Below, in pieces: positions 54,519 through 62,674 of a stretch of 64,000 nt of DNA; positions within the stretch are counted from its first letter, which is position 1, and every line of letters starts with the position of its first letter. The translations under genes were made by a program, and so were the position numbers. The notes under the pieces are model-generated. The model searched no databases and was not told the DNA's origin. It worked only from the letters and a program-made list of their open reading frames with translations. The stretch spans positions 1 to 64,000 of the forward strand of contig NZ_CP034442.1 in the NCBI RefSeq assembly GCF_007475365.1. The letters are read 5' to 3'. The stretch comes from Streptococcus oralis subsp. dentisani. GTDB taxonomy: Bacteria > Bacillota > Bacilli > Lactobacillales > Streptococcaceae.

Positions 54519-55211
54519 ATGCTGAAATGGGAAGACTTGCCCGTGGAAATGCAATCAAGCGAGGTTGAGTCTTACTACCAGCTTGTCTCTAAAAGGAAAG
54601 GTTCGCTGATTTTCAAGCGTTGCCTGGACTGGGTTCTGGCCTTGGTTTTACTGATTTTGACTTCCCCAATCTTTCTTGTCTTGAGCATTTGGATCAAGTT
54701 GGATAGCAAGGGACCCGTCATTTACAAGCAAGAGCGCGTGACCCAGTACAACCGTCCTTTCAAGATTTGGAAGTTCCGTACTATGGTAACGGATGCGGAT
54801 AAAAAAGGAAGTCTGGTGACTTCTGCTAACGATAGCCGCATTACCAAGGTTGGAAATTTCATCCGCCGTGTGCGCTTGGACGAACTGCCTCAGCTGGTCA
54901 ATGTCCTTAAAGGCGAGATGTCCTTTGTAGGCACAAGACCTGAGGTGCCACGTTACACCGAGCAGTATAGTCCTGAAATGATGGCGACCTTGCTCTTGCC
55001 AGCAGGAATCACCTCTCCAGCCAGCATCAACTACAAGGATGAGGATACGATCATCAGTCAAATGACGGAGAAAGGTCTATCAGTTGACCAGGCCTATGTC
55101 GAACACGTCCTTCCTGAAAAGATGCGCTATAACCTCGCCTATCTCCGAGAGTTTAGTTTCCTTGGAGACATCAAAATCATGTTTCAAACCGTGTTTGAGG
55201 TACTAAAATAA
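54519..55211 (+). CDS. Undecaprenyl-phosphate sugar phosphotransferase, probably for teichoic acid
   Basis: A 230-residue member of the bacterial sugar transferase family (PF02397). A membrane helix lies near residues 34-56; family motifs IWKFRTMV, RLDELPQLVNVLKGEMSFVGTRPEVPRY (in two parts) follow. It would transfer a sugar phosphate to undecaprenyl phosphate. With the aminotransferase next door it matches the pneumococcal pair proposed to make and attach the AATGal residue that starts the teichoic-acid repeat. AAAGGAGAAA precedes the ATG. Confidence 0.87.
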   Translation: MLKWEDLPVEMQSSEVESYYQLVSKRKGSLIFKRCLDWVLALVLLILTSPIFLVLSIWIKLDSKGPVIYKQERVTQYNRPFKIWKFRTMVTDADKKGSLVTSANDSRITKVGNFIRRVRLDELPQLVNVLKGEMSFVGTRPEVPRYTEQYSPEMMATLLLPAGITSPASINYKDEDTIISQMTEKGLSVDQAYVEHVLPEKMRYNLAYLREFSFLGDIKIMFQTVFEVLK

Positions 55212-55253
55212 AGTAGTCATGAGAAAATGAGTACAGATAAAAGGAGCAAATCA

Positions 55254-56483
55254 ATGCCAAATTACAATATTCCATTTTCACCACCCGATATTACCGAAGC
55301 TGAAATTGCTGAAGTAGCGGATACCCTTCGTTCTGGCTGGATCACAACAGGTCCTAAGACAAAAGAACTGGAGCGTCGCTTGTCTCAATACACACAGACA
55401 CCTAAGACTGTCTGCCTCAACTCTGCGACTGCCGCTCTTGAGTTGATTTTACGTGTCTTGGAAGTGGGACCTGGTGATGAAGTCATCGTTCCAGCTATGA
55501 CTTATACAGCTTCATGTAGTGTCATCACTCACGTAGGAGCAACACCTGTCATGGTGGATATCCAAGCAGATACTTTTGAGATGGACTATGACTTGCTTGA
55601 GCAAGCCATTACTGAAAAGACTAAGGTGATCATCCCAGTAGACCTTGCAGGGATTGTTTGCAACTATGACCGTTTGTTCCAAATTGTGGAGAAGAAACGC
55701 GACCTCTTTACTGCTTCAAGTAAGTGGCAAAATGCCTTTAACCGTATCGTGATTGTCTCTGATAGTGCCCATGCTTTGGGATCTACTTATAAAGGGCAAC
55801 CAGCTGGTTCTATCGCTGACTTTACTTCCTTCTCATTCCATGCCGTTAAGAACTTTACAACGGCTGAGGGAGGAAGTGCGACTTGGAAAGCCAATCCAGC
55901 GATTGATGACGAAGAGATGTACAAGGAATTCCAAATCCTTTCCCTTCATGGTCAAACCAAAGACGCTCTTGCCAAGATGCAACTGGGTTCATGGGAGTAC
56001 GATATCGTAACACCAGCCTACAAGTGTAACATGACGGATATCATGGCTTCGATTGGTTTGGTACAATTGGACCGTTACCCAGCTTTGCTACAACGTCGTA
56101 AGGACATCGTGGGCCGCTATGATCGTGGTTTTGCGGGTACTCGTATTCACCCATTGGCACACAAGACTGATACTGTTGAATCTTGTCGTCACCTCTACAT
56201 CACCCATGTAGAAGGAGCAAGTCTAGAAGAACGCAACCTCATCATTCAAGAATTGGCCAAAGCAGGAATTGCAAGTAATGTACACTACAAACCGCTTCCT
56301 CTCTTGACAGCCTATAAGAATCTTGGTTTTGATATGGCAGATTATCCAAGAGCCTATGCCTTCTTTGAAAATGAAATTACACTCCCTCTTCATACAAAAT
56401 TAAGCGATGAAGAAGTTGATTACATCGTTCAGACTTTGGTGAGTATTTCCGAAGAAATACTCGGTTCAGGAAAAAAACCATAA
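55254..56483 (+). CDS. DegT/DnrJ/EryC1/StrS family sugar aminotransferase
   Basis: A 409-residue PLP enzyme. The catalytic lysine is in SFHAVKNFTTAEGG near residue 205, with N-terminal GWITTGPKTKELE and the substrate loop NMTDIMASIGLVQLD typical of the family. It should aminate a UDP-4-keto-hexose, consistent with AATGal synthesis for phosphocholine teichoic acids. ATG 55254 follows AAAGGAG; an earlier ATG at 55227 lacks a good site. Linked with the transferase upstream. Confidence 0.87.
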   Translation: MPNYNIPFSPPDITEAEIAEVADTLRSGWITTGPKTKELERRLSQYTQTPKTVCLNSATAALELILRVLEVGPGDEVIVPAMTYTASCSVITHVGATPVMVDIQADTFEMDYDLLEQAITEKTKVIIPVDLAGIVCNYDRLFQIVEKKRDLFTASSKWQNAFNRIVIVSDSAHALGSTYKGQPAGSIADFTSFSFHAVKNFTTAEGGSATWKANPAIDDEEMYKEFQILSLHGQTKDALAKMQLGSWEYDIVTPAYKCNMTDIMASIGLVQLDRYPALLQRRKDIVGRYDRGFAGTRIHPLAHKTDTVESCRHLYITHVEGASLEERNLIIQELAKAGIASNVHYKPLPLLTAYKNLGFDMADYPRAYAFFENEITLPLHTKLSDEEVDYIVQTLVSISEEILGSGKKP

Positions 56484-56491
56484 AAAAAATC

Positions 56492-56520
56492 TTGACAAAG
56501 ATAGAACAATAACATATAAT
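56492..56520 (+). promoter_or_regulatory. Strong promoter of the tryptophan region
   Basis: Consensus TTGACA (56492-56497), 17-base spacer, consensus TATAAT (56515-56520). Confidence 0.92.
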
Positions 56521-56530
56521 ATTCTCAATA

Positions 56531-56779
56531 AATCAGAAAAGTAACTATTTTTGATCTTCAGGGAGCCTGTGGTGATTGTGAACAGGTGGTTGGAAGTAGT
56601 GAAAGTGGGCTGATTTTAAAAATGAATTTGAAACAATGAAAATTCGGTACGCACACCTTACAGTGCAACTTGTTGTTAGACAAGGCAGAGATGTAAAGGG
56701 GAATAGTCTCTTTATAATTGAGGTGGCACCGCGTTACAAACGCCCTCACACAGATTATTTTCTGTGTGTGGGCTTTTTT
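56531..56779 (+). promoter_or_regulatory. Trp-specific T-box riboswitch 1, upstream of the extra trpB
   Basis: Stem I base AATCAG (56531-56536) / CTGATT (56610-56615); specifier TGG (56606-56608) followed by G in the loop next to the base helix, pairing with tRNA-Trp. T-box motif TGGCACCGCG (56724-56733): UGGC accepts discriminator G, as in tRNA-Trp. Terminator CCCTCACACAGA / TCTGTGTGTGGG with T6 (to 56779). Uncharged tRNA-Trp should permit read-through. Confidence 0.92.
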
Positions 56780-56912: not shown

Positions 56913-58091
56913 ATGACAACTAAAGGTTATTTTGGACAATTTGGTGGTAGTTTTGTACCGGAGCCGATTCAGGCTTTGTTGGATGAGCTAGAAGTGACAT
57001 TTGACAAGTACAAGGATGATCCAGAGTTTTTGGCAGAATTTCGTCATTACTTAAAAGACTATTCAGGTCGCGAAACACCGCTCTATTTTGCGGAAAGTTT
57101 GACAGACTACCTAGGTGGGGCTAAGATTTATCTCAAGCGAGAAGATCTTAACCATCTGGGTTCTCACAAGCTCAACAACGTTTTAGGGCAAATTCTTCTG
57201 GCAAAACGTATGGGCAAAAAACGAGTGATCGCAGAAACAGGGGCTGGTCAGCACGGGGTTGCGACAGCAGCTGCAGCAGCCAAGTTTGGTATGGCTTGTG
57301 ATGTCTACATGGGAGCAGAAGATGTGGAGCGTCAACGTCTCAATGTTTTCCGCATGAAGATGATGGGAGCAACTGTTCACGCAGTTGAAACAGGGACACG
57401 AACTCTCAAGGATGCGGTTGATGCAGCCTTTGGAGCATGGATGAATGACCTTGAAGCCTTCTACGTTTTGGGATCTGCTGTAGGCCCTCATCCTTATCCT
57501 ACCATTGTTCATGAGTTTCAAAAGGTTATCAGTGAAGAATCTCGCCGTCAAATCTTAGAAAAAGAAGGACGCTTGCCAGATTACGTTATTGCCTGTGTAG
57601 GTGGTGGTTCCAATGCCATCGGTGCTTTTTCACAGTATGTAGCTGATGAAGAAGTCAAACTGGTTGGGGTCGAAGCTGCCGGTCATGGACTTGACACAGA
57701 CAAGCACGCAGCCACTATGACAAAAGGTAGTGTCGGAATTGTCGATGGTATGAAGACTTATGCAGTCTTTAAGGAAGACGGAGAGCTGGCTCCAGTTTAC
57801 TCTATCTCTGCTGGTTTGGACTATCCAGGGGTTGGCCCAGAACACGCCTACTTTAAAGATTCAGGTCGCGTGGAATATGTGGCAGCGACAGACGAAGAAG
57901 CTGTTCAAGCCTTGCTCCTCCTCAGCAAGACAGAAGGGATTATCCCAGCGATCGAAAGTTCACATGCCATCGCAGAAGCGGTTAAACGTGCATCGAAACT
58001 AAGTAAAGATGAGATTATTATCATCAATGTCTCTGGTCGTGGAGACAAGGACGTAGCTGCGATTGCAGACTACCTAGAAGCTAAAAAATAA
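56913..58091 (+). CDS. trpB2: Extra tryptophan synthase beta chain (TrpB paralogue)
   Basis: A 392-residue PLP enzyme with all beta-chain marks: the PLP lysine in [11 protein letters not shown], catalytic Glu in AETGAGQHG, phosphate loop [21 protein letters not shown] and GRGDKD at the end. It is clearly different from the operonic TrpB (62652): it has a longer [13 protein letters not shown] link and a [14 protein letters not shown] segment that recalls enterobacterial TrpB. Alone it can join indole to serine. It is TrpB1-like in type, so it might bind TrpA. It has its own T-box and promoter, suggesting use in indole salvage. trpB2 here means a second copy, not the TrpB2 subfamily. Confidence 0.92.
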
Positions 58092-58093
58092 AA

Positions 58094-58338
58094 GATGGAA
58101 AAATTACAGTACTTTCTTTCCCAGAGAGCTTGTGGTTGCTGGAAACAAGCAGAGAAAGCTGTAAGGTTGGGTCCATCTGAAACGAGAGAAGAAAACATAA
58201 TTCTCAAGGGAGTGCCCTTTATCGCACAGCCTGTTACAGGAGCTTTCTGAGACAGGAATGAGAGATAGGAGAAATCCTATAATTGAGGTGGCACCGCGAA
58301 TTTCGTCCTCACGCAAGTTATTTTGCGTGGGGATTTTT
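58094..58338 (+). promoter_or_regulatory. Trp-specific T-box riboswitch 2, upstream of trpE
   Basis: Stem I base GATGGA (58094-58099) / TCCATC (58172-58177), second helix TTACAG (58104-58109) / CTGTAA (58159-58164); specifier TGG (58168-58170) in the loop. The AGAGAG distal element is present at 58122. T-box TGGCACCGCG (58289-58298), terminator CCTCACGCAA / TTGCGTGGGG and T5. It starts two bases after the extra trpB stop, with no visible promoter of its own. Confidence 0.92.
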
Positions 58339-58384: not shown

Positions 58385-59746
58385 ATGGAACGAATTATTC
58401 ATGGTGATGTCTTATCACCAATCTTGGCTTATATGCGCCTAAAGGGACAACACAAGGTGATCCTAGAGAGTATTCCTAGAGACAAGGAAACCGCTCGTTT
58501 TTCTATCCTAGCTTATAATCCTGTTTTTGAGATTCAGTTTGAAAATGGGGTCCTTTATCAAAATGGTCAAGTGATTGATCGGGATCCCTTGGATTTCCTT
58601 TATGAAGTGACTCATAAGAGCCAGCACCATTCAGATCTACCTTTTGGTGGAGGAGCTATTGGCTTTGTTGGTTACGATATGATTTCGCTCTATGAAGAAA
58701 TTGGTCAAATCCCTCAAGATACCATTGGGACGCCAGACATGCATTTCTTTCTCTATGAGAGTTACATGGTCTTTGACCACAAGAAGGAAAAAATCCATGT
58801 CATCGAAGATGCTCTTTACAGCGAGCGCAGTCAAGAGGATTTGGAAAAAGCCTTGAATCAAGTGCTTGAGGAATTACGCATTCCTGCTCCAAATGAATTT
58901 GAAGATTTGGATTTATCTCCTCTCGACTTCAAACCGCATATCGCTCCTCAGAAGTTTGAGCAAATGGTGGAAACAGCTCGTGATTTGATTCGTAATGGTG
59001 ATATGTTCCAATGCGTGCTCAGCCAGCGTTTCTCAGCAGAAGTTACTGGAAATCCATTTGACTTCTACAGAAATCTCCGCGTGACCAATCCATCTAATTA
59101 TCTCTATTTCTATGATTTTGGTGATTATCAAATCATCGGTGCTAGTCCTGAAAGTTTGGTTTCTGTTAAAAATGGCATCGTGACGACCAACCCGATTGCA
59201 GGTACGCGACCAAGAGGGGCTACGGATGAAGAGGACAAGGCTTTGGCGACTGACCTGCTTTCTGATGAGAAGGAAACAGCAGAACATCGGATGTTGGTAG
59301 ACTTGGGGCGTAACGATATTGGTCGCATCTCTGAAACTGCTAGTGTTCAAGTCACCAAGTATATGGAAGTGGAGCTCTTCCGCTATGTCATGCATTTGAC
59401 CAGCGTGGTCAAGGGACGTTTGCTTCCAGAACTCACTGCCATGGATGCATTGAAAGCTACACTTCCAGCTGGAACAGTGTCAGGAGCTCCAAAGATTCGA
59501 GCTATGAGACGCATCTATGAACTGGAGACGGAAAAACGAGGCGTATACGCAGGAGCAATCGGCTACTTGTCTGCGACGGGTGATATGGATTTGGCCATTG
59601 CCATCCGAACCATGATTCTTAAAGATCAAACAGCCTATGTGCAGGCTGGGGCAGGGATTGTCTATGACTCTATTGCCCAAAACGAATACCAAGAAACCAT
59701 TAACAAGGCTAAATCTATGACTAGAATTGGAGAACTAAGACCATGA
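58385..59746 (+). CDS. trpE: Anthranilate synthase component I
   Basis: A 453-residue subunit converting chorismate to anthranilate. The Trp feedback site ILESIPRDKE near residue 24 is preserved, and the chorismate-binding domain shows FQCVLSQRFS, GASPESLV, IAGTRPRGA and GAPKIRAMRR. ATG 58385 follows AAAGGGAAA; codons upstream in frame lie in the T-box. It overlaps trpG by four bases. First gene of trpEGDCFBA. Confidence 0.96.
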   Translation: MERIIHGDVLSPILAYMRLKGQHKVILESIPRDKETARFSILAYNPVFEIQFENGVLYQNGQVIDRDPLDFLYEVTHKSQHHSDLPFGGGAIGFVGYDMISLYEEIGQIPQDTIGTPDMHFFLYESYMVFDHKKEKIHVIEDALYSERSQEDLEKALNQVLEELRIPAPNEFEDLDLSPLDFKPHIAPQKFEQMVETARDLIRNGDMFQCVLSQRFSAEVTGNPFDFYRNLRVTNPSNYLYFYDFGDYQIIGASPESLVSVKNGIVTTNPIAGTRPRGATDEEDKALATDLLSDEKETAEHRMLVDLGRNDIGRISETASVQVTKYMEVELFRYVMHLTSVVKGRLLPELTAMDALKATLPAGTVSGAPKIRAMRRIYELETEKRGVYAGAIGYLSATGDMDLAIAIRTMILKDQTAYVQAGAGIVYDSIAQNEYQETINKAKSMTRIGELRP

Positions 59747-60309
59747 TTTTATTGATTGACAACTATGATTCTTTTACCTATAACTTGGCGCAGTACATTG
59801 GGAATTTTACAGAAGTGCAGGTCTTGAGAAATGATGATCCCAAGCTGTATGAAGAAGCTGAAAAAGCAGATGGTCTGGTCTTTTCTCCCGGTCCTGGTTG
59901 GCCGGTTGATGCTGGAAAGATGGAAGACATGATTCGTGACTTTGCAGGTAAGAAGCCGATTCTAGGGATTTGTTTGGGTCACCAAGCTATCGCAGAAGTC
60001 TTTGGTGGGAAGCTAGGTTTGGCTCCAAAAGTCATGCATGGGAAACAGAGCCATATCAGCTTTGAAGCGCCATCTGTTTTGTATCAAGGTATTGAGGATG
60101 GTCGTCCAGTCATGCGTTATCACAGCATTTTGATTGAAGAAATGCCAGAAGACTTTGAAGTGACAGCTCGTTCAACTGATGACCAAGCTATTATGGGAAT
60201 TCAACACAAAAATCTTCCAATTTATGGCTTCCAGTACCATCCAGAGAGTATCGGAACGCCAGATGGCTTGTCTTCTATTCGGAATTTTATCGAAAAGGTT
60301 GTAAAGTGA
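59743..60309 (+). CDS. trpG: Anthranilate synthase component II (glutamine amidotransferase)
   Basis: A 188-residue class I amidotransferase supplying ammonia to TrpE. Nucleophile Cys in [11 protein letters not shown], His and Glu in [11 protein letters not shown]-terminal [13 protein letters not shown]. Overlaps trpE by ATGA. In many Firmicutes this subunit also serves p-aminobenzoate synthesis; here it is tied to the trp operon. Confidence 0.95.
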
Positions 60310-60319
60310 GGAAACTAGG

Positions 60320-61324
60320 ATGAAAGAGATTATTGAAAAATTAGCAAAATTTGAAAATTTATCAGGTGTGGAAATGACGGATGTCATCGAGCGTATCGTA
60401 ACTGGGCGTGTAACCGAAGCGCAGATTGCTTCTCTCCTCTTGGCCCTTAAGATGAAGGGGGAAACACCTGAAGAGCGCACAGCCATTGCACAAGTTATGA
60501 GAGGGCATGCCCAACACATTCCAACTGAAATTCATGATGCCATGGACAACTGCGGTACAGGTGGAGACAAGTCCTTCAGCTTTAACATTTCGACAACTGC
60601 AGCCTTTGTCTTGGCTGGTGGTGGCATTCATATGGCTAAGCACGGTAACCGTTCGATTTCTTCTAAATCAGGTTCGGCAGATGTCCTTCAAGCATTGGGC
60701 ATCAATCTGGATCTCAAACCAGCTGAACTAGGTAAGGTTTTCGATAAAACTGGAATCGTCTTTCTCTTTGCTAAAAATATGCACCCAGCAATGAAATACA
60801 TCATGCCAGCTCGTTTGGAACTAGGAATTCCAACAATCATGAACTTGACTGGTCCACTGATTCACCCAATGGCCTTGGAAACACAGTTGCTTGGCATTAG
60901 TCGTCCAGAACTGCTAGAAAGTACCGCTCAGGTTTTGAAAAATATGGGCCGCAAACGTGCCATCGTGGTTGCTGGACCAGAAGGGCTAGATGAAGCTGGC
61001 TTGAACGGAACAACCAAGATTGCTCTTCTTGAAAATGGCGAAATCACCTTGTCAAGCTTCACTCCAGAGGATTTGGGGATGGAAGGCTACGCTATCGAAG
61101 ATATTCGTGGAGGCAATGCTCAGGAAAATGCAGAAATTTTGCTCAGCGTTCTTCAAAACGAACCAAGTCCATTCTTGGAAACGACAGTTTTAAATGCTGG
61201 TCTTGGTTTCTATGCTAATGGTAAGGTAGCTAGTATCAAGGAAGGAGTTGCCTTGGCTCGTCAAGTAATTGCTAGTGGCAAGGCCCTTGAAAAACTCAGA
61301 CTATTACAGGAGTACCAAAAATGA
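60320..61324 (+). CDS. trpD: Anthranilate phosphoribosyltransferase
   Basis: A 334-residue enzyme joining anthranilate to PRPP. The PRPP-binding [15 protein letters not shown] (near residue 77) and [18 protein letters not shown] motifs are diagnostic. Preceded by AGGA and separated from trpG by 10 bases; overlaps trpC by ATGA. Confidence 0.96.
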
Positions 61325-62088
61325 GTCAGGAATTTTTAGCACGAATCTTAGAGCAGAAGGGGCGTGAGGTCGAGCAAATGGAGCTGGAGCAAATCCAGCC
61401 CTTGCGCCAGACATATCGCTTGGCAGAATTTTTGAAGAATCACCGTGACCGTTTGCAGGTAATCGCTGAGGTCAAGAAAGCTAGCCCTAGTCTGGGAGAT
61501 ATCAATCTCGATGTGGATATTGTGCAACAGGCCCAGACTTATGAAGCAAACGGCGCAGTAATGATTTCTGTTTTGACAGATGAGGTTTTCTTTAAGGGGC
61601 ATTTGGATTATCTACGGGAGATTTCCAGTCAGGTAGAGATTCCAACGCTCAACAAGGACTTTATCATCGATGAAAAGCAAATCATCCGAGCTCGCAATGC
61701 AGGTGCGACAGTCATCTTGCTCATCGTGGCTGCCTTGTCAGAAGAACGCCTCAAGGAACTCTATGACTACGCGACAGAGCTTGGTCTGGAAGTCTTGGTG
61801 GAGACCCACAATCTAGCTGAACTAGAAGTGGCCCACAGGCTTGGTGCTGAGATTATTGGGGTTAACAACCGCAACTTGACCACCTTTGAGGTCGACTTAC
61901 AGACCAGTGTAGACTTGGCCCAGCACTTTAAGAAAGGTCACTATTACATTTCTGAATCTGCTATTTTCACAGGGCAGGATGCGGAACGAGTAGCACCGTA
62001 CTTTAACGGAATTTTGGTAGGGACAGCTCTTATGCAGGCAGAGGATGTGGCTCAAAGAGTCAAGGAGTTGCAGATTGACAAAGGTTAA
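61321..62088 (+). CDS. trpC: Indole-3-glycerol phosphate synthase
   Basis: A 255-residue TIM barrel that makes indole-3-glycerol phosphate. Catalytic residues appear in [21 protein letters not shown] and [10 protein letters not shown], with SESAIF and ILVGTALM near the end. It is a separate protein from TrpF, unlike the E. coli fusion. Overlaps trpD by four bases and trpF by fourteen. Confidence 0.95.
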
Positions 62089-62674
62089 GATTTGTGGACT
62101 ATCGACCAAAGAAGCGGTAGAAACAGCCGTATCAGCAGGGGCGGATTACATCGGTTTTGTCTTCTCACCTAGTAAAAGGCAGGTGACCTTGGAAGAGGCT
62201 ACTGAGCTGGCAAAGCTCATTCCTGCTAATGTTAAAAATGTTGGTGTATTTGTTTCACCAAGTCGGGCAGAACTGCTAGAAGCGATTGACAAGGTTGGCT
62301 TGGACTTGGTTCAAGTTCATGGTCAGGTAGGGGATGATTTGTTTGAGGATTTACCTTGTGCCAGTATTCAGGCTGTGCAGGTGGATGGAGAGGGTCATGT
62401 GCCCAATTCTCAGGCAGACTATCTACTCTTTGATGCCCCTGTGGCTGGGAGTGGCCAGACCTTTGACTGGGGTCAACTGGATACGACAGGATTAACTCAG
62501 CCTTTCTTTATCGCAGGTGGGCTTAATGAAGACAATGTAGTAAAAGCAATTCAACACTTTACTCCCTATGCAGTAGATGTATCGAGCGGAGTGGAGACAG
62601 ATGGACAAAAAGATCATGAAAAGATTAGAAGATTTATAGAGAGGGTAAAGCATGGCATATCAAGAACCAAATAA
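62075..62674 (+). CDS. trpF: Phosphoribosylanthranilate isomerase
   Basis: A 199-residue TIM barrel. The start is a TTG at 62075, giving [11 protein letters not shown] with the catalytic Cys7; the catalytic Asp is in AVDVSSGVE and the phosphate loops IAGGL and GVE are present. A start at 62045 would add ten residues encoded in trpC and is not needed. Purine-rich AAGGAG at 62060 serves as site. Overlaps trpC and trpB. Confidence 0.93.

Follow-up and report, generated by a model that had tools for sequence, protein, structure and literature searches.

The region analyzed here raises the question of why a streptococcus with a complete tryptophan operon should carry, directly ahead of that operon, another gene for the β chain of tryptophan synthase (TrpB) under a leader of its own. 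The window is a stretch of 64,000 nucleotides, positions 1 to 64,000 of contig NZ_CP034442.1 of Streptococcus oralis subsp. dentisani, and its relevant features are collected in Table 1. The solitary gene opens with an ATG, is free of internal stops in the ORF list of the window, and scores 612 bits with TIGR00263 against a cut-off of 392, which identifies its product as a TrpB1; identity as TrpB2 was rejected, the score with TIGR01415 being 186 bits against a cut-off of 519. All nine catalytic positions are present, and the initial annotation was right in describing a full-length trpB with intact catalytic motifs and its own T-box, standing 5′ of a complete trpEGDCFBA that has a trpB already. 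Both T-boxes in the window exceed the Rfam gathering score of 93, and a Trp (UGG) specifier, predicted from a loose sequence pattern, can be seen by eye in both leaders. Promoter-like sites around 56492–56520 number 8 against 6.9 expected, and since this count is close to expectation, only the perfect match was taken as a promoter. Of the 5′ neighbors at 54519–56483, one resembles a sugar-phosphate transferase by eye and another a DegT-type aminotransferase; they probably belong to glycan-precursor synthesis and have no connection with the trp unit.

Table 1. Features of the solitary trpB and the trp operon in the window
Feature	Position	Strand	Basis
σ70 promoter of the trpB unit, TTGACA-17-TATAAT	56492–56520	+	12/12 consensus match
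T-box 1, leader of solitary trpB; T-box core at 56722	56519–56750	+	Rfam RF00230, 97.6 bits
Terminator-like hairpin and T run ending T-box 1	56747–56776	+	pattern scan, consensus match only
Solitary trpB, 392 aa, TrpB1 type, putatively TrpA-independent	56913–58091	+	TIGR00263, 612 bits; residues; tree
T-box 2, leader of trpEGDCFBA; T-box core at 58287	58088–58313	+	Rfam RF00230, 96.3 bits
Terminator-like hairpin and T run ending T-box 2	58305–58338	+	pattern scan
trpE (start set at an ATG)	58385–59746	+	ORF; assigned by eye on sequence and gene order
trpG	59743–60309	+	ORF, named by eye
trpD	60320–61324	+	ORF, named by eye
trpC	61321–62088	+	ORF, named by eye
trpF (listed ORF; actual start probably more internal)	62045–62674	+	ORF, named by eye
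Operonic trpB, 407 aa	62652–63875	+	TIGR00263, 635 bits
trpA, running past the window end	63898–64596		match in the window's genome

The reading that we favor, with a probability of about 80%, is that the solitary TrpB represents an old lineage of Lactobacillales that works without TrpA and would make tryptophan from outside indole and serine under T-box control. A fall in charged tRNA-Trp would let transcription through the T-box, indole would diffuse in from outside, and the solitary TrpB, in the window's own strain as elsewhere, would join indole to serine to give tryptophan without TrpA. The anatomy of gene and T-box, the separateness of the lineage from the operonic TrpB, purifying selection, presence without trpA and trpC, and the alteration of TrpA-contact residues next to constant catalytic ones are established directly.

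In terms of distribution, the solitary lineage is found in 83 of 147 Streptococcus genomes (one of them, G098, counted despite a gene split into two frames), and the survey of the T-box–trpB unit that the initial annotation had proposed returns a T-box core at 80 of 80 named loci. The lineage occurs together with trpA in 67 of the 147 genomes and without it in 16, whereas 36 have trpA without the lineage and 28 have neither. Among the matches listed in Streptococcus genomes, orthologues are 81–99% identical to the query and operonic copies 57–59%. Sampling of 345 Lactobacillales genomes placed the lineage in 8 genomes outside Streptococcus (G253, G245, G308, G436, G186, G183, G439, and G173) at 69–83% identity; altogether it spans five family codes of the order (f1, f3, f4, f6, and f8) and is thus not peculiar to oral species. 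Fusobacterium and Porphyromonas of oral biofilms, named in the initial annotation, would be possible suppliers of the indole.

The partners of the enzyme are missing from many of these genomes. In a trpA search of 23 genomes, the 13 in which the solitary lineage is the only matched TrpB (5 Streptococcus and 8 others) had no trpA, and the remaining 10 all had it. Together with the 16 genomes of the Streptococcus survey, these 13 make up 29 solo-only genomes, among which family searches detected trpA in none and trpC in none (PF00218; control 14/14). Tryptophanase was likewise found in none of 30 genomes, namely these 29 and the window's own (TIGR02617, for which the control gave a match in 3 of 14 genomes, Escherichia coli, Deinobacterium, and Haloferax, one of them above the cut-off). 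Genome-wide family searches for partners covered trpA, trpC, and tryptophanase. Where trpB is found alone, the lack of all three searched families (0/29 each) leaves the condensation of indole with serine, as initially proposed, as the best-fitting reading. TrpA independence is, however, not forced in the 67 genomes in which trpA coexists. A precedent is provided by a bifidobacterial trpB described as converting outside indole to tryptophan (PMC11085991); as a counterpoint, the oral streptococcal trp cluster has been suggested to make indole rather than to use it (PMC8552878).

The solitary gene is under purifying selection. Values of dN/dS between the window gene and five relatives (L033, L042, L086, L103, and L106) are 0.020–0.037 (dS approaches saturation against L086, L103, and L106), and the value between two solo-only genomes is 0.024; the out-of-frame row of G069 was left out of this comparison. 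Residues were tabulated in E. coli numbering for 20 rows of the solitary lineage, 26 TrpA-linked rows, and 9 rows of a second stand-alone clade described below. The nine catalytic positions (H86, K87, E109, Q114, H115, S235, N236, D305, and S377) are invariant in all three groups. Arg175, present in 23/26 TrpA-linked rows, occurs in 0/20 solitary rows (G in 12, A in 5, E in 2, and D in 1) and in 0/9 of the second clade, and Asn171 (21/26 TrpA-linked) is Asp in 20/20 and 9/9, respectively. Among the solitary rows, Leu174 is replaced by Phe in 20/20, His280 (25/26 TrpA-linked) by Asp in 19/20, Gln288 (26/26 TrpA-linked) by Phe in 18/20, and Met22 (24/26 TrpA-linked) by Gln or Lys in 17/20. Equivalents of Lys167 and Arg175 are described as TrpA contacts and positions 174 and 280 as the entry point of indole into TrpB, although in the Streptococcus pneumoniae enzyme the residue corresponding to Arg175, Arg179, is too distant to interact in the solved state (PMC6608616). 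We infer an interface role for positions 22, 288, and 293. TrpA-contact and tunnel residues have thus been altered while catalytic residues stay, partly in parallel with the second clade. The six-residue stand-alone signature Res6 is matched by the solitary copy at 3/6 positions and by the operonic copy at 2/6, and Res6 was rejected as the basis of stand-alone function.

The second stand-alone clade comprises nine rows from other Bacillota (L229, L233, L234, L236, L239, L240, L246, L247, and L253, within L225–L253), with support of 100/99 and no trpA adjacent. The trpA search around it covered 12 genomes, 9 of them without trpA; within the clade, trpA is absent from 6/9 genomes, and the other three (G569, G516, and G649) have trpA beside another TrpB. 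TrpB1 thus appears to have left its partner on two or more separate occasions.

The alternative that survives best is that the solitary TrpB acts as a second β chain that pairs with TrpA of the operon and raises or tunes tryptophan synthase activity when tryptophan is short. The co-occurrence with trpA in 67 of the 147 streptococci and the retention of Lys167, a known TrpA contact, in 19/20 solitary rows would suit such a role. The 29 genomes with the lineage and no trpA, the changes at Arg175, Asn171, Leu174, His280, and Gln288 across the lineage, and the full TrpB that S. oralis-type genomes already own along with trpA argue against it, and we regard it as unlikely.

The favored reading also calls on tryptophan-dependent control. 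A T-box core with the loose Trp pattern precedes the gene at 80/80 named loci and a promoter pattern at 78/80; Rfam T-box scores lie above gathering in some relatives and reach only 71–83 bits at four solo-only Streptococcus loci. Of the 80 loci, 61 have a T-box–trpE unit 3′ of the solitary trpB, and at none of these 61 does a promoter pattern fall between trpB and trpE. Where trpE is located elsewhere (L303, L304, L305, L309, and L312), a promoter pattern is found upstream in 5/5 genomes. Because no promoter-like site separates trpB from trpE, T-boxes 1 and 2 may control a single transcript one after the other, which would allow salvage to be switched on before full synthesis; weak promoter-like matches inside the solitary trpB make such series control possible rather than proven.

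The surroundings of the gene vary. An rlmN-like gene lies just 5′ in 27/80 named loci and is absent there in 53/80; it and a downstream prepilin-peptidase-like gene, the latter lacking an NCBIfam match, were named from sequence, and a vanZ-like gene nearby scores far below the cut-off of the vanZ model. On the 3′ side, trpG alone follows in 6/80 (L062, L066, L067, L076, L080, and L107), and no operon follows in 13/80, of which 12 are of the parasanguinis/australis type and one (L037) is a stretch ending 224 nt past the gene. The solitary trpB of G069 ends 36 nt before the trpE ORF, and a single T-box was found there. In G195 and G130 (L191 and L146), trpB is followed by TrpX (NF041285) and permease- and ATPase-like ORFs, an arrangement that would join tryptophan salvage and tryptophan import in one place.

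The loss of these units is reciprocal: either the operon has been lost with trpB kept, or trpB has been lost with the operon kept. In G076, G103, and G171 the locus reads T-box–trpB–trpG, and a second TrpB, trpA, and trpC are all absent. Retention of trpG beside the solitary trpB after loss of the operon was seen at L139, L140, and L190; presumably the remaining trpG may supply the amidotransferase needed to make folate. The opposite case is seen in five trpA-only genomes of the mitis group (G038, G094, G025, G066, and G019; loci L306, L307, L308, L310, and L311), where the leaders of T-box 1 and T-box 2 flank a gap at the trpB position and no promoter pattern occurs within 650 nt upstream of trpE. 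Two of them keep C-terminal scraps of trpB (35 aa at 74% and 68 aa at 34% identity). Seven trpA-only genomes were fetched, and five of them entered this comparison of scars; the remaining two, G074 and G036 (trpE about 72% identical), have a single T-box core. Tandem T-boxes at trp operons are already known (PMC12452182), and in the accessible part of that paper they are not traced to the loss of a stand-alone trpB; deletion of the solitary trpB supplies a concrete origin for those found at some trp operons of streptococci. Decaying copies were observed as well, with a stop inside the match in G013 (L135) and G120 (L144), both solo-only genomes, and a split frame in G098 (L149). At the G013 locus, repeated transposase-like ORFs were noticed by eye just 5′ of the gene, and a T-box core was not found. 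These broken copies and the loss in five relatives indicate that the solitary trpB is dispensable.

At several orthologues the T-box is replaced by RF04312, above the cut-off in G130, G308, G245, and G183 and below it in G439, G436, and G253; the leader in G186 resembles it. RF04312 has been described as a strong riboswitch candidate located mostly before amino-acid-type ABC transporters, with classic attenuation left open (PMC11109978). Matches at E ≤ 0.01 occur in 206 of 345 genomes, 55 of them above the cut-off. We analyzed 69 loci (L195–L224, L262–L280, and L282–L301), consisting of the 30 best and 39 weaker ones hand-picked among the matches listed for spread over scores and family codes; 40 stretches were fetched for the latter test, and L281 (G253) was left out. 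At the 30 best loci, a short Trp-containing ORF ends 9–27 nt before the motif start in 30/30, and the next gene matches TrpX in 24, TrpB in 3, and neither reference in 3. At the weaker loci (next gene TrpX in 37 and TrpB in 2), a Trp within the last nine residues is found in 37/39, compared with 11.5% of letter-shuffled sequences and 3/39 on the antisense strand, and two Trp close together in 14/39, compared with 0.1% and 0, respectively. A widened rule yields a putative leader ORF at 69/69 loci, including L267 and L279, which the first rule had missed (67/69). These ORFs start with ATG in 66/69 and have a Shine-Dalgarno word in 66/69 (background 10%, though starts with such a word were preferred).

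The leaders are also predicted to adopt alternative folds. With segments placed after the Rfam structure line, in which P1 of RF04312 is C:D, the mutually exclusive pairings B:C, C:D, A:D, D:E5, and E5:E3 beat partners taken from other sequences (0/1000 permutations for each, uncorrected for kinship), whereas the non-model pairings A:C and A:B show no such fit (606/1000 and 924/1000). In the cases of A:D and D:E5, no more than 47/69 and 50/69 sequences, respectively, fit their own partner better. When tryptophan is short, a ribosome would stall on the leader Trp codons and B would pair with C, leaving D free to pair with E5, and termination would be avoided. When tryptophan suffices, the ribosome would reach the stop and cover B, C would pair with D, and the terminator E5:E3 would form. 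The leader ORF with Trp near its end and the mutually exclusive pairings make RF04312 most likely a ribosome-mediated Trp leader-peptide attenuator. At 35.9 bits, the window's own genome gives a weak match that lacks a leader ORF and is followed by neither a trpX nor a trpB match; it was taken as chance.

We consider it a good bet that a TrpA-free TrpB1 forms a one-gene indole module, able to outlive the trp operon, under either of two unrelated Trp-starvation RNA switches, and that RF04312 is an attenuator rather than a ligand-binding riboswitch and controls mostly trpX and sometimes a stand-alone trpB. A TrpB-type enzyme could instead use another nucleophile or make another product, such as a tryptophan analogue, or detoxify indole; TrpB enzymes accept many nucleophiles, and the tunnel-gate residues of the lineage differ. 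Both kinds of leader found upstream are, however, of the Trp-starvation type, a tryptophan importer gene follows the solitary trpB in G195 and G130, and the catalytic residues are unchanged, so that this alternative is quite improbable. Most likely, the chemistry is ordinary and the setting unusual, in that a conserved, partner-free TrpB would make tryptophan from outside indole under Trp-starvation control.

As for the origin of the gene, the phylogeny that the initial annotation had suggested was run on 58 TrpB sequences, with E. coli as the one Gram-negative row. Streptococcal operonic TrpBs fall in another clade than the solitary lineage, of which 19 of 20 rows form one clade with support of 100/99 that also includes the long-branched L185, a second TrpB from G231; the twentieth row (L182 of G173) joins with support of 83/77 only. 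A constraint uniting all streptococcal TrpBs is rejected (p-AU 2e-5). On this tree the solitary trpB is a member of a separate TrpB1 lineage of Lactobacillales, and the two copies, 57% identical over 388 aa, are deeply diverged, as had been claimed, with no recent tandem copying. The proposed gain from enterobacteria did not hold up, since E. coli TrpB is 54% identical to the solitary and to the operonic copy alike and the gene sits in the Lactobacillales clade. The resemblance to enterobacterial TrpB claimed for two segments is borne out only in part, E. coli reading QILEREGRLPD and FGMKAPMMQTEDGQ there; the first segment of the solitary copy is also present in the reconstructed ancestor LBCA (PDB 5ey5) and hence ancestral rather than enterobacterial. 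Recent gain of the solitary trpB, by tandem duplication or from Gram-negative bacteria, is suggested by its position directly adjoining the operon in the window and is nevertheless highly improbable given the low identity between the two copies, their separate clades (in a tree with one Gram-negative TrpB), the equal distance of E. coli TrpB from both, and the spread of orthologues through the genus and four further family codes.

Within the order, the gene of G253 (L175), a member of another family, nests among the streptococcal sequences of the tree, a sign that the gene may have moved between members of the order; L175 has an RF04312-like leader (35.6 bits), suggesting that the gene was transferred with a different switch. 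The copy of G231, also of another family, is more distant (61% identity) and is placed with the solitary lineage by the tree. This genome (L185/L277 and L186) has both an operonic and a solitary trpB, as does the window, and its solitary trpB sits under an RF04312-type leader.

Comparison with known systems sets the lineage apart. It shares family, full length, and catalytic residues with TrpB1 (TIGR00263) and differs in having no TrpA in 29 genomes and changed TrpA-contact and tunnel-gate residues. The Thermococcus TrpB2, a second TrpB likewise thought to use free indole (cited in PMC11085991), is of another family, as the TIGR01415 score indicates. The stand-alone TrpB of Pelodictyon luteolum and the ancestral LBCA-TrpB are reported to be highly active alone, a property that the solitary TrpB may share, but both carry Res6, and Pelodictyon has TrpA (PMC11917138). 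Chlamydia trachomatis rescues itself with neighbors' indole through a similarly cut-down pathway, trpRBA (PMC4042155, PMC6302012), which keeps trpA, whereas the solo-only relatives here have trpB alone under a T-box. In Streptococcus suis, a reporter-tested Trp-starvation T-box also precedes a Trp-supply locus, trpXYZ, which encodes a transporter rather than an enzyme (PMC9382623). The trpB motif published as RF04312, a riboswitch candidate with attenuation open (PMC11109978), is the same Rfam family as that found here before trpX and stand-alone trpB, where a Trp-containing leader ORF was found. Among the matches listed in openly licensed literature, neither a stand-alone streptococcal trpB nor an RF04312 leader peptide appears; new here are the operon-independent lineage, the scars left where it was lost, and the interpretation proposed for RF04312.

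With this reading, the orphan regulatory RNA RF04312 becomes directly testable, and the two clades that have changed in parallel at positions contacting TrpA offer test material for the escape of TrpB from its partner. Lactic acid bacteria and streptococci without a trp operon, which would be counted as tryptophan auxotrophs, may make tryptophan from their neighbors' indole, which alters the interpretation of tryptophan cross-feeding and of tryptophan depletion by the host.
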